A stretch of DNA of 64,000 nucleotides from Desulfarculaceae bacterium. Its GTDB lineage: Bacteria > Desulfobacterota > Desulfarculia > Desulfarculales > Desulfarculaceae. Below the pieces are notes generated by a model. The model made no database searches and was not told where the DNA came from. It worked only from the letters and a program-made list of their open reading frames with translations. Where the stretch lies: contig JAIPDO010000009.1 in NCBI GenBank assembly GCA_021737645.1, positions 20,984 to 84,983 on the forward strand, given 5' to 3'. Positions 57,802 to 64,000 of the stretch are shown piece after piece; position 1 is the stretch's first letter; each line of letters opens with the position of its first letter. Made by a program: the position numbers and the translations under genes.

Positions 57802-58266
57802 TTAGGGCTTTTGGCTCTCCAGCGCATACAGCACATAGGTTTCGCTGGTGGTCAACTTTGGCCTATTACCCGCAAAACAGTAATAGGGCGGTTTCTCATC
57901 ATAAGAAACTTCACTAGTCATTTTAAAATTATTGACGCCGGCTTCATATAACAACCCTACGGATACGACGTACCGGTCCTTTTTTCTTTTCCAGACATCA
58001 TCCGCAAACTTATAGTGAAGCCTTGTTCCGCAGTTGCTGCAAAAATTCCATGTTGCCCATATTGCGGGCTTATACCCTTTTACCAGTTCGGATCCTTGAA
58101 TAATTTTTACGTCATTACATTTTGCGCCGAAACCGGGGCCGCTGTGGATGAACTGGCACGTACTACAATGGCAGGCGGTGAATCCAGGGTCTACCCCGGA
58201 GATTTCCAACACTACTTTTTCACAGCAACATTTTGCGGTAACTTTAGATATTCTTTCGCTGGACAT
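57802..58266 (-). CDS. GFA family zinc protein (AT-rich)
   Basis: This 154-aa member of the GFA/CENP-V family has zinc ligands CCCEKV, ACHCSTCQF and FCSNCGTRLHY. Family members include glutathione-dependent formaldehyde-activating enzymes, but most have unknown substrates. It is cytoplasmic (no signal). It ends convergent to the exported gene at 57733 and lies 1 base after a related gene (58268-58912) on the same strand. Codon use is AT-rich (AAA, TTT, ATT) in contrast to the neighbours, which suggests horizontal origin. Confidence 0.85.
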   Translation of the reverse strand: MSSERISKVTAKCCCEKVVLEISGVDPGFTACHCSTCQFIHSGPGFGAKCNDVKIIQGSELVKGYKPAIWATWNFCSNCGTRLHYKFADDVWKRKKDRYVVSVGLLYEAGVNNFKMTSEVSYDEKPPYYCFAGNRPKLTTSETYVLYALESQKP

Positions 58267-58267
58267 A

Positions 58268-58912
58268 TTACACTCCCTTCGAATTTGAATGATCTATTAA
58301 CTTATTAAAATGTTTTATAAGGTCACCCGATGAAAACTTTTTAGTTTCATGGAAACTGTAATACTTTGGTTTTACATCAAAAAACGTTTCATTTTCCATT
58401 ATCAAATCTTTTCCGTAGGTGCTGTGTATCAGCCCTAAAGAAACATTAAATTTGTCATTGAAGTTTTTTGATATTTTGTCGTTGAAGCTATAGTAAAGCC
58501 TGGAGCCGCAATTTGAACAGAATTGCCATGTTTTCATGCCTTTTGGCAAACTGCAGGTTTTTTCTCCTTCCTTATATTCTTTCGTAAATCCATTTACATA
58601 CTCTTTACCATTGATAACTTTAATGTCGCTGCAGTTTGCCCCGTACCATGGGCCATTATGCATTAATTGACACGTATCACAGTGACATACGGTAAACCTG
58701 GTATCCAGGTTGATAAGTTTAAGCACCACCTTCTTACAGTGACATGGTGCAATAATTTCGGACTTTACTTCTTTGATCGAGCTTTCTTTCTCTTCGCTTT
58801 TTTCGCTAGCTAATGCCATTGGTGGTTTACTAAAAACAGCGTTTCCAAATCCCAGCGCGGCGCCGCCGATGGCCACATTTTTGATGAAATTTCTTCTATT
58901 TATTTCTCCCAT
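58268..58912 (-). CDS. GFA family zinc protein with a Tat signal (AT-rich)
   Basis: I start it at the ATG at 58912 (MGEINRRNFIKNVAIGGAALGFG), with GGAGGG five bases upstream; the track adds 17 codons. About 214 aa. The leader has a twin-arginine motif (RRNFIKN) and a hydrophobic stretch, so the folded zinc protein is probably sent to the periplasm. The body carries the GFA set: PCHCKKV, VCHCDTCQLMHNGPWYG and FCSNCGSRLYY. It is about 40-45% identical by eye to its tandem neighbour. The AT-rich composition differs sharply from the rest of the window. Confidence 0.85.
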   Translation of the reverse strand: MGEINRRNFIKNVAIGGAALGFGNAVFSKPPMALASEKSEEKESSIKEVKSEIIAPCHCKKVVLKLINLDTRFTVCHCDTCQLMHNGPWYGANCSDIKVINGKEYVNGFTKEYKEGEKTCSLPKGMKTWQFCSNCGSRLYYSFNDKISKNFNDKFNVSLGLIHSTYGKDLIMENETFFDVKPKYYSFHETKKFSSGDLIKHFNKLIDHSNSKGV

Positions 58913-59389
58913 AAGGCCCTCCATGTTAATCCAGGTTATGCGGTAGCCGCCGGTCTTAGCCACATTTTGAGGCTTTGGGCCCCGAGAAAGCTAGACTTTT
59001 AACTTTTTAATTTATTCGATCAACTCATTCTTTACCCTGGGCGGTGCCCAAAAATTTCTCGGTATTGGTGCGTCAACCAGTCCTCCAAGCCACAACCCGC
59101 CCCGCCCGGACAAGGCGAAGATCGCCACTCAAGCTCACCCCATCACCAACCCGCCGCCTAATAGTAACCAACGACCCCCTTGACCGGGCCGGTCCTGCGC
59201 CTGGATAATTTAGGTATGGAGCCCTAATCCGGTGAGGAAGCACCTGGAGTCAAACCCAGGCTGAACTCGATCTACCGCTCGCGCGCTCCTTCCAGACCCT
59301 CCCGCGCCGCCAGGCCTGACCGCTTTCAGCTCACCATGGCGATACATCCTCCGCTCCAGCCGCGTCCTCGCCCTGCAAGGAGGAATGCC
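58913..59389. other. Non-coding gap with a short repeat block
   Basis: This 477-base gap has an A/T-rich left part (58980-59040) and a copy of the AAGGCGAAGATCGCC repeat (59093-59125) seen also at 27098-27140. No gene was accepted; the track ORF at 59210-59395 lacks coding character. Confidence 0.5.
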
Positions 59390-61416: not shown

Positions 61417-62532
61417 CTACAGGCGCATGGGCATTATCACGCTCAGGAAGCCTTCGTCCGCCTCGCCCTTGATCAGGCAGGGATGCTGCTCATCCACGAA
61501 GCCCAGGGTTATTTCCTCGCTCTTCATGGCCCCGCACAGATCCAGGAAGTAGCGGGCGTTGAAGCCCACACTCAAGGCGTCGCCGTCGTAGTCCACCTCC
61601 AGGGCCTCGCGGGCCTCGCCCAGATCCGGGTTCTGGCTCACCACCTCTAAGAGGCCTTCCTTGAAGTCCAGCTTTACCCCCTGAAAGCGATCCGTGGCCA
61701 AAATCGCCACCCGCCGCAGCACCTCGGAAAAGGCCTGGCGGTTAACCACCACTTTCTTCTTGCTCACCTTGGGAATAACCACCTCGTAGTCCGGGAAGGA
61801 ACCCTCTTGCATGCGCAACACCAGACGGGCGCCGTCCAGGGCCAAGGAGGCGTAGCTTTGGTTGAGGCCCAGGGAAATGGTCTCGGCGTCCTCGGCCATC
61901 TTGCGCATCTCGGCCACGCCCTTGCGGGGGATGATTACCCCGCCGTCCAAGGCGAAGCCCTCCAGGCCGTCCAGGGAGCGGTCCACCAAAGACAGGCGGT
62001 GCCCGTCGGTGGATACGAAACGCAGATAGTCCGCGCCATCGCGGTTGCGCTTTTGCACGTACAGGCCTGCCAAGTTGAAGCGGGTGTCTTCCTGGGAAAT
62101 GGAGAAAATGGTCTTTTCCACCATCTCGGCCAGCATCTCACCAGCCACGCTAAGCTCGGGAATGCCTTCCACGTCCGGCAGGTTGGGGAAGTCCTCGGCG
62201 GACAGCCCCACCAAGTTGAAGCTGGCGCGCCCAGCGGTGATATGCAGGTAATTATTCTCTTTTTCTTTCAGATAAATCTCTTCGGCTGGAAGCTCTTTGA
62301 CGATCTCGTAGAGTTTGCGCGCGGGTACGGTCACCTTGCCCGGTTTGCTCACTCTGGCCGCGCAAATGCCCTGAAAACTGGTTTCCAGGTCAGTGGCGGC
62401 CACGGTGAGGCTCTCGTCCTCGGCCTCCAACAGCACGTTGGACAGGATGGGCATTGAGGTGCGGCGCTCAACCACCGATTGAGATTTGCCCAAACCCTTG
62501 ACCAAGTCTTCCTTGCGAACAGTTAGCTCCAT
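61417..62532 (-). CDS. dnaN: DNA polymerase III sliding clamp (beta subunit)
   Basis: DnaN forms the dimeric ring that tethers polymerase III to DNA and binds other replication and repair proteins. It has 371 aa (normal), with three clamp domains. Recognised blocks are VVERRTSMPILSNVLLEAEDESLTVAATDLETSF, RFNLAGLYVQ...RFVSTDGHRLSLVDR, and the C-terminal VGFNARYFLDLCGAM...LVDEQHPCLIKGE-like end with YLSVIMPMRL-type GFLSVIMPMRL. The start ATG at 62532 follows AAAGGTG. It is downstream of dnaA across the candidate oriC, transcribed leftward like dnaA. Confidence 0.97.
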   Translation of the reverse strand: MELTVRKEDLVKGLGKSQSVVERRTSMPILSNVLLEAEDESLTVAATDLETSFQGICAARVSKPGKVTVPARKLYEIVKELPAEEIYLKEKENNYLHITAGRASFNLVGLSAEDFPNLPDVEGIPELSVAGEMLAEMVEKTIFSISQEDTRFNLAGLYVQKRNRDGADYLRFVSTDGHRLSLVDRSLDGLEGFALDGGVIIPRKGVAEMRKMAEDAETISLGLNQSYASLALDGARLVLRMQEGSFPDYEVVIPKVSKKKVVVNRQAFSEVLRRVAILATDRFQGVKLDFKEGLLEVVSQNPDLGEAREALEVDYDGDALSVGFNARYFLDLCGAMKSEEITLGFVDEQHPCLIKGEADEGFLSVIMPMRL

Positions 62533-63132
62533 CTATCTTTCACCTTTGAATTGCGGGATATAGCTGTCTGGTTCACCTTAACCCAAACTCCGGCGGCAGG
62601 GCAAGATAAAGACTCCTTGTGATTAGCCTTACCACTCAAGTATCCGCCCTTTATCGGGTCAATGCCGTTTTTGCGATGCGCCTACGATCAATGCCCTACT
62701 TTTCATTAGGGCATGAAAAATAATGTGAACTAAGGATCATTTTTAAAAAGCCATTAAGTTATCAATAGTTAAGTAATATTATACCTATTATGAAAACACT
62801 TAATTCACAACATACTCACAGGAGTTACGCCCCGGTAACACCAGGAGAAGATAGAGATTTAAGCCATCGGCCGGTGCCAACGCCCTCTCAACCATACCAA
62901 GAATCCGGCTGCTTTGGTAACCCAGGGCCGCGGCGAGCCGTATTACTCGGATGAAGGCTCCTGAAGCAAAATACGCGGGTCACTCCCCCATACAGCCTAG
63001 GGATCGCCTCCTGGGAAATCCTTTCAGGGAACCCGCCGTCTTTCCTCAAACCATGAGATTGACCAAAACGGTGGGCGCGGGGCGCCTCTTTTACTTACCT
63101 GCATCTTAATACGTTGGGCAAAAGGCGGTCCG

Positions 63133-63324
63133 TTTTCCAACTTGGTGTAGCGCCGCCCCTTTATTACTATTAGTTCTTAATTATTTAGTAATAATAGTAG
63201 AGGGCGGCTCAAAGGTGGAAAACCGTCTCAACTCTTGGAAACCATGGGAATAAGTTCTCCACCGTCTTTTACACCGGCTATGAGTTTTTCCACCGTGGGG
63301 CCGGTTTGCGAGGGGTTTTCCACC
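63133..63324. promoter_or_regulatory. Cluster of DnaA-box-like 9-mers (TTTTCCACC)
   Basis: Exact TTTTCCACC occurs at 63286-63294 and 63316-63324 on the plus strand and at 63214-63222 on the minus strand (GGTGGAAAA). Close variants are TTTTCCAAC (63133-63141), TTCTCCACC (63255-63263) and TTTTACACC (63267-63275). They resemble the DnaA box TTATCCACA with A to T at position 3 and A to C at position 9. The last box ends two bases before the dnaA stop codon. Confidence 0.7.
63153..63207. repeat. AT-rich imperfect hairpin within oriC
   Basis: CCGCCC (63153-63158) pairs with GGGCGG (63202-63207), and inside them TTATTACTAT and AGTAATAATAG form a further AT-rich imperfect stem. It lies between TTTTCCAAC and GGTGGAAAA boxes, so it could be an unwinding or cruciform element. 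Confidence 0.6.
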
Positions 63325-63326
63325 GC

Positions 63327-64000
63327 CTAGTCACCTTGTTTGCCCTGGCGAATGGCGTTCTCCACCGCCCTGACCGTGTCGGCCAGCTCCGGGTCCTGGG
63401 CCAAGAGCTTCTCCACCCGCTGCACCCCCTTGACCACCGTGGAGTGATCCTTGCCGCCCAGAGCTTGGCCTATCTCCGGGAAAGAGGCCTTGGTCAGGCG
63501 GCGGGCCAGATACATGGCCACCTGGCGCGGTCGGCTGATGTCCCGGCTCTTGCGCGCGCTCTTGATGTCCGCCGGGCGGATGCCGTAATGAGCCGCCACC
63601 ACCCTGAGCACGTCCTCCACCCCCACCAGATGCTCGCTGGCCAGAGGCCCCAAAACCTGGCGGGCCAACTCCAGGCTTACCTCGGTGCCCCGTAGGCGGC
63701 TTACCGCCATTAGGCGGTTGAGGTAGCCCTCCAGCACCCGGATGGACGACTCGGGCTGATTGGCCAGGTAGGAGGCCACTTGGCGGCTGAGCACCACTCC
63801 CTTGTCCGTGGCCTTGCGCTGCAAGATGGCCATCTTGGTTTCGGCGTCCGGGGTTTGCAGATCGGCCAACAGCCCCCACTCGAAACGGGTGCGCAAACGG
63901 CTGGCCAAGCCGGGGATGTCCCTGGGCAGCTTGTCTCTGGTCAACACGATCTGGCGCCCGGCCTGAAACAGGGCGTCAAAGGTGTGAAAAAATTCCTCCT
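63327..64000 (-). CDS. dnaA: Replication initiator DnaA (partial, 5' end outside window)
   Basis: This is the C-terminal part of the AAA+ initiator that binds DnaA boxes and melts the origin. Frame and motif reading give EEFFHTFDALFQAGRQIVLTRDKLPRDIPGLASRLRTRFEWGLLADLQTPD (sensor regions of domain III). Domain IV follows with the DNA-binding helix-turn-helix and the DnaA signature GGKDHSTVVKGVQRVE. About 223 residues are visible of an expected 440-470. It reads leftward to a TAG at 63327, and the gene is cut by the right edge. It faces the oriC region and then dnaN. Confidence 0.95.
   Translation of the reverse strand, partial: EEFFHTFDALFQAGRQIVLTRDKLPRDIPGLASRLRTRFEWGLLADLQTPDAETKMAILQRKATDKGVVLSRQVASYLANQPESSIRVLEGYLNRLMAVSRLRGTEVSLELARQVLGPLASEHLVGVEDVLRVVAAHYGIRPADIKSARKSRDISRPRQVAMYLARRLTKASFPEIGQALGGKDHSTVVKGVQRVEKLLAQDPELADTVRAVENAIRQGKQGD

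Follow-up and report, generated by a model that had tools for sequence, protein, structure and literature searches.

Does the cluster of non-canonical DnaA boxes beside dnaA in the genome of this uncultured Desulfarculaceae bacterium mark the chromosomal replication origin, and what in its sequence could open the two strands there? The window, meaning the whole stretch of 64,000 nucleotides that was analysed, ends where its contig does: contig G000:C89 (84,983 b) stops at window base 64000, inside dnaA. The part of the gene present, on the minus strand at 63327..64000, is the C-terminal 223 codons, which encode the end of the AAA+ domain, the lid and domain IV (PF08299, 4.7e-31; PF00308, 2.3e-11; DnaA of structure 8btg, 6.7e-54); its stop codon is 63327-63329. 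The gene for the DNA polymerase III beta clamp, dnaN (PF00712, PF02767, PF02768), lies on the same strand at 61417..62532, and the dnaA-dnaN intergenic region of 794 bp spans 62533..63326. Identity of the DnaA fragment to its homologs is 94% for L035, 91% for L036, 82% for L037, 76% for L038 and 73% for L045, and the nearest named DnaA records come from Desulfarculaceae, Desulfarculus or unplaced deltaproteobacterial metagenome assemblies. Walker motifs, the ISM isoleucine and the arginine finger are all visible by eye in full-length sister DnaA.

Several other features of the region were recorded. A probable dnaN promoter, TTGCCC-17-TTAAGG (62576..62604, minus strand), was picked out by eye and is largely kept in the aligned genomes of the genus; a consensus promoter scan returned no match to it. 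A second AT-rich stretch upstream of dnaN (62697-62810, up to 75-80% AT) has the motifs TGTGAA and AGTTCACA in common with sister genomes, and a stem-like GCCCTAATGAAAAGTAGGGC found in the window and in L006. Downstream of the origin core, the minus-strand sequence GGTAAGTAAAA (63084-63100) is retained in L006 and L007, while L009 and L010 carry the similar TTTGAGTAAAA; the conserved sequence matches no recognised site. A structured RNA at the origin was rejected, 62500-63400 having no match in Rfam. Outside the region, the minus strand carries two neighbouring genes of the GFA-domain (formaldehyde-activating enzyme) family at 57802-58963; an N-terminal extension of the second looks like a twin-arginine signal.

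The DnaA-box cluster

An earlier note on this DNA had reported three exact copies of TTTTCCACC and three variants within about 190 b at the end of dnaA, in both orientations, and all six were recovered, between 63133 and 63324. The box at 63214-63222 is on the minus strand and the other five are on the plus strand. The exact plus-strand copy at 63316..63324 ends two bp from the dnaA stop, as described, and another exact copy follows at 63286..63294, 30 bp away; both positions are kept in L006 and L007. The three variants, TTTTCCAAC (63133-63141), TTCTCCACC (63255-63263) and TTTTACACC (63267-63275), each differ from TTTTCCACC by one mismatch. Distal box TTCTCCACC lies 31 bp from the box at 63286 and 41 bp before the minus-strand box, and at the place of the degenerate TTTTACACC L006 has TTATCCACC. 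The 30-31 bp spacing of distal boxes is held in the window, L007, L008, L009, L010 and L022, and the 41 bp spacing to the minus-strand box in the window, L007, L008 and L018. The distal boxes face the opposite way to that box; in Bacillus subtilis, either orientation of the distal box works, with helical phasing (PMC6669920).

Matches to TTTTCCACC with at most one mismatch number 52 in the whole window, against 16.1 +/- 3.9 in dinucleotide shuffles. Exact copies number 14 on the 84,983-base contig, with three inside these 190 bp (Poisson P ~3e-6 for one single stretch, uncorrected for how many stretches there are). The relaxed pattern TTNTCCAC has six sites within 250 bp here, compared with no more than two per 250 bp elsewhere on the 85-kb contig. 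The densest box cluster of the contig is that at 63133-63324, and it adjoins dnaA and dnaN, as expected of a bacterial oriC.

A box spelling characteristic of the family

The boxes keep the TCCAC core of the canonical TTATCCACA, as had been noted, and TTTTCCACC departs from it at positions 3 and 9. A census at 16 Desulfarculaceae origins, covering the 230 bp that follow dnaA, gave 57 NNNTCCACN sites, all of them TCCAC sites, so that positions 4-8 are fixed by construction. The commonest spelling among them is TTTTCCACC (23 of 57); position 9 is C in 43 and position 3 is T in 39. The identical 9-mer recurs at the origins of relatives, and the proposal of a lineage-specific box is borne out: TTTTCCACC is the rule within Desulfarculaceae. 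Comparison with sister genomes, which the earlier note had suggested as a check, finds the TTTTCCACC boxes kept with the same orientations and spacing, the exception being L011/L038, where a degenerate arrangement is shifted by an inserted gene. Both L036 and L038 have an extra insert of more than 1 kb between dnaA and dnaN; in L036 the basal unwinding system (BUS, described below) remains beside dnaA, whereas L038 has a degenerate one on the far side of the insert.

An A at position 9 has been described as conserved in DnaA boxes across distant bacteria (PMC5124646). The recognition helix reads GGKDHSTVVKG in the DnaA studied here and GGRDHTTVIHA in the solved DnaA 8btg; that these differences account for C9 is our guess. 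Among the open-access papers searched, none has both TTTTCCACC and the phrase "DnaA box". Initiator specificity could be tested on the family-wide C9, and programs that locate origins by TTATCCACA would serve Desulfarculaceae poorly.

GC skew and the position of the origin

The genome to which the window belongs is split into 114 contigs, one of which breaks within dnaA, and its GC skew is unreadable for that reason; the skew check proposed in the earlier note was run in relatives. G005, of the same genus, is a single contig of 4,479,191 b. Read from sampled 20-kb blocks, its skew stays positive over the first ~2.3 Mb and is mostly negative thereafter, up to 4.46 Mb; dnaA sits where the sign switches, and the local minimum near it is a flat plateau of ~25 kb. 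G009, of the same family, is a single contig of 3,655,731 b, in which cumulative skew over a contiguous 400 kb drops to 205 kb, is flat to 264 kb and then climbs. Its dnaA orthologue, at 273.7 kb, is ~10-70 kb from that minimum (205-264 kb). The signal is weak (a few per cent) and the plateau broad; the sign of the skew changes at this locus both in the sampled genome and in the contiguous stretch.

A second full-length protein resembling DnaA, with ~35% identity to it over the fragment, is encoded in most genomes of the family. The window genome's own copy has 486 aa with domains I, III and IV (L155:1929-3389, in G000:C26). An origin at this second gene was rejected: TTNTCCAC has no occurrence within its 4.5-kb locus in the window genome, and in G009 the second gene (G009:C1:1005-1655) is away from the skew turning point. 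The G009 contig starts near that gene, yet its skew turns ~205-270 kb off, and replication probably does not start at base zero of its numbering.

Because the box is conserved in the family and the skew of relatives turns near dnaA, the earlier placement of the origin between dnaA and dnaN is supported. Neither of the two outcomes that the earlier note had named as refuting it, a skew switch elsewhere or repeats not conserved in sister species, was borne out by these checks. We are confident that the 63133-63326 region, in the dnaA-proximal 200 bp of the intergenic region, is the oriC of the Desulfarculaceae chromosome, or the dnaA-proximal part of it, with a standard BUS. That the TTTTCCACC copies are instead sites of another regulator near dnaA, with the origin elsewhere, is highly improbable: apart from the departures from TTATCCACA at positions 3 and 9, nothing was found in its favour, and skew, BUS syntax, gene order and the TCCAC core agree on an origin.

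A predicted basal unwinding system

The published BUS search takes a DnaA box and three or more trios with a central A on the bound strand, separated by a spacer no longer than 16 bp; spacer lengths peak at 10-13, and 13 bp is the commonest (PMC8287927). We looked for a box with at most two mismatches, or the lineage box, and at least three NAN trios within 16 bp, and found TTTTCCACC (63214..63222), a spacer of 13 nt (63201..63213) and five trios (63186..63200), all on the minus strand. The spacer, TTTGAGCCGCCCT, comprises a degenerate second box and a GC-rich stretch; in L012 it holds a clear second box, TTTCCACC. The trios read CTA CTA TTA TTA CTA (CTACTATTATTACTA), for which the predicted bound strand is the plus strand, of 3'-GAT-5' type. 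The earlier note had missed this module and the facing partner described below, which are what is most informative about the locus.

In seven genomes of the genus, TTTTCCAC at the box and the TTT that follows are invariant. In an alignment of four genomes, invariant columns make up 13/13 of the box with TTTG, 3/13 of the first spacer and 15/17 of the forward trios with the centre. The inner trios of the four closest genomes vary at trio position 1 only (C/T), as expected of trios.

A facing run of trios on the other strand

Across a 7-bp AT centre (63179..63185), a second run of trios on the plus strand points at the first module, the AT-rich core being common to both. It consists of six trios in phase, TTA TTA CTA TTA GTT CTT (TTATTACTATTAGTTCTT, 63161..63178), preceded on that strand by a GC-rich spacer of 19 nt whose sequence is not conserved (63142..63160) and, before the spacer, by the weak box TTTTCCAAC (63133..63141). 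As a second BUS this arrangement is incomplete: six NTN trios are present on the other strand, where at least three are required, but the box stands 19 nt off rather than within 16 bp. Spacers longer than 16 bp count only with a second box in between (PMC8287927), and such a box is not clear here. The trios are near whole in L006 and L007, 4/6 in L008 and about three in L009 and L010. In the four-genome alignment 12/19 columns are invariant over the facing trios and 3/30 beyond them, all three in the facing-box region, where the four genomes have the weak sites TTTTCCAAC, GTTTCCAAC, TTTTCACCC and TTTTCCAAA. Conservation in this alignment falls in the facing spacer and comes back weakly at the box, like that of the first module. 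In g7, another genus of the family, the facing boxes of origins L017/L019 are at full strength (TTATCCACC/TTTTCCACC) and stand at about the distance seen here (71 against 73 bp), with poorer trios.

The AT core is an inverted repeat, and a hairpin or cruciform was rejected: pairing holds in only 66% of cells, for 7/14 pairs unpaired cells are the sole departures, and shuffles score about equally well.

Under one scoring scheme for a mirrored box plus trios, P <= 0.05 against shuffles was reached at 8 of 15 origins from the family and at 5 of 54 from other phyla; the scheme was devised with the window already in view, and family members share ancestry, so the trials are not independent. The trio run of the window, taken alone, gives P = 0.003. 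Among origins that have a strict forward BUS, a run of three mirrored YTA trios is present at 3 of 7 in the family (0.17 expected) and at none of 28 outside it (0.27 expected), and this last count gives no support to a mirrored BUS as a general bacterial rule. A genome-wide scan of 345 genomes of the phylum found the strict mirrored-trio pattern in four, each time at dnaA-dnaN. The origin is its sole location in G000 and G005. In G352 and G253 it is also at dnaA-dnaN, with the mirrored half abutting the dnaN ribosome site or sitting in dnaN.

Two explanations of the facing trios have to be weighed. The first, which we consider the probable one, takes them as a mere AT-rich duplex unwinding element, in which the trio phase and TTTTCCAAC would be by-products of A/T composition and shared ancestry. 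Mirrored trios in other phyla are no more frequent than shuffles predict, and several family members have none, as this explanation would have it. It accounts less well for the conservation of the sequence itself beyond AT content, at 12/19 columns, and for the low P value of the window's run.

The second explanation is opening from two sides, the strong BUS directing a filament onto the plus strand and the weak TTTTCCAAC - 19 nt - TTATTACTATTAGTTCTT another onto the minus strand, with one helicase for each. We hold this as a possibility, tentatively. The loss of conservation in the spacer and its return at the facing box, the excess of high mirrored scores and of strict YTA trios in the family over other origins, the confinement of all four strict matches in the phylum to dnaA-dnaN, the full-strength facing boxes of g7 at a similar distance and a DnaD-family protein searched for and not found all speak for it, as does the unconserved pairing of the arms, by which the AT core is not a hairpin. 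Against it stand the weakness of the facing box, a spacer above the published limit of 16, the restriction of strong mirrored trios to three close relatives, with fewer in L008-L010, a g7 with the box but poor trios, scores designed after the window was seen, and the situation of the other two phylum matches, one partly in dnaN coding sequence and one abutting the dnaN ribosome site. Opening from two sides supplements the standard BUS explanation and does not replace it. The stronger form, in which two facing box/trio modules round one AT core each carry a DnaA filament on their own strand and place the two helicases symmetrically, in place of what DnaD is proposed to do on the second strand in Bacillus, appears to us unlikely. 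An AT-rich unwinding element with a weak trio-like phase on the other strand is more likely than two filaments.

Proposed course of opening and helicase loading

From B. subtilis and other studied origins, we infer DnaA binding, filament formation, unwinding and helicase loading as follows. DnaA would bind the family box TTTTCCACC, and the two or three opposite-facing distal boxes, about three helical turns apart, would help gather it. The box at 63214-63222 and its 13-nt spacer would guide DnaA, as a filament, to the trios at 63186-63200 and so open the AT-rich core, as in a standard BUS. Helicase would then be recruited, probably with DciA, which was found. With no DnaD-family protein found, the second-strand role proposed for it in Bacillus (PMC10201434) has no obvious carrier here.

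The facing second module could contribute to strand opening and helicase loading. In the BUS structure the free arginine fingers point away from the boxes (PMC10721633), so the two filaments, formed on the plus strand by the first module and on the minus strand by the second, would be directed at the centre between them. One helicase might be placed there on each strand, and the two would move apart, each 5'->3'. The BUS literature calls the loading of two helicases at a bacterial origin, one on either strand, an unresolved question (PMC10721633, PMC10201434). If opening from two sides were true, bidirectional loading would be solved without DnaD, and the facing trio runs provide a concrete, short DNA substrate on which the two-filament model can be tested.

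Comparison with known origins

In kind this is an ordinary origin, one whose box is lineage-specific and which may have a second module facing the first. Among known DnaA boxes, the cyanobacterial-type TTTTCCACA has in common with that of Desulfarculaceae the T at position 3 and the TCCAC core, but has A at position 9 where C stands here. The oriC box of Bdellovibrio bacteriovorus, NN(A/T)TCCACA (PMC5124646), shares relaxed first positions with the box of Desulfarculaceae and comes from another of the former Deltaproteobacteria; it too has A9 in contrast to C9.

The closest parallel in architecture is the BUS of B. subtilis incC, formed by DnaA-boxes 6/7 and DnaA-trios, together with the homologues predicted for it (PMC8287927, PMC6669920, PMC10721633). 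The two share the order dnaA-oriC-dnaN and the same succession of box, 13-nt spacer (a degenerate second box and a GC stretch) and equally oriented YTA trios. Distal boxes are opposite in orientation, and helical phasing has been reported in B. subtilis. The DnaD recognition element has no known reader here, a DnaD family protein not having been found. The box itself differs, being TTTTCCACC here, and the AT core, unlike that of B. subtilis, is closed by a second, facing trio run and a weak box.
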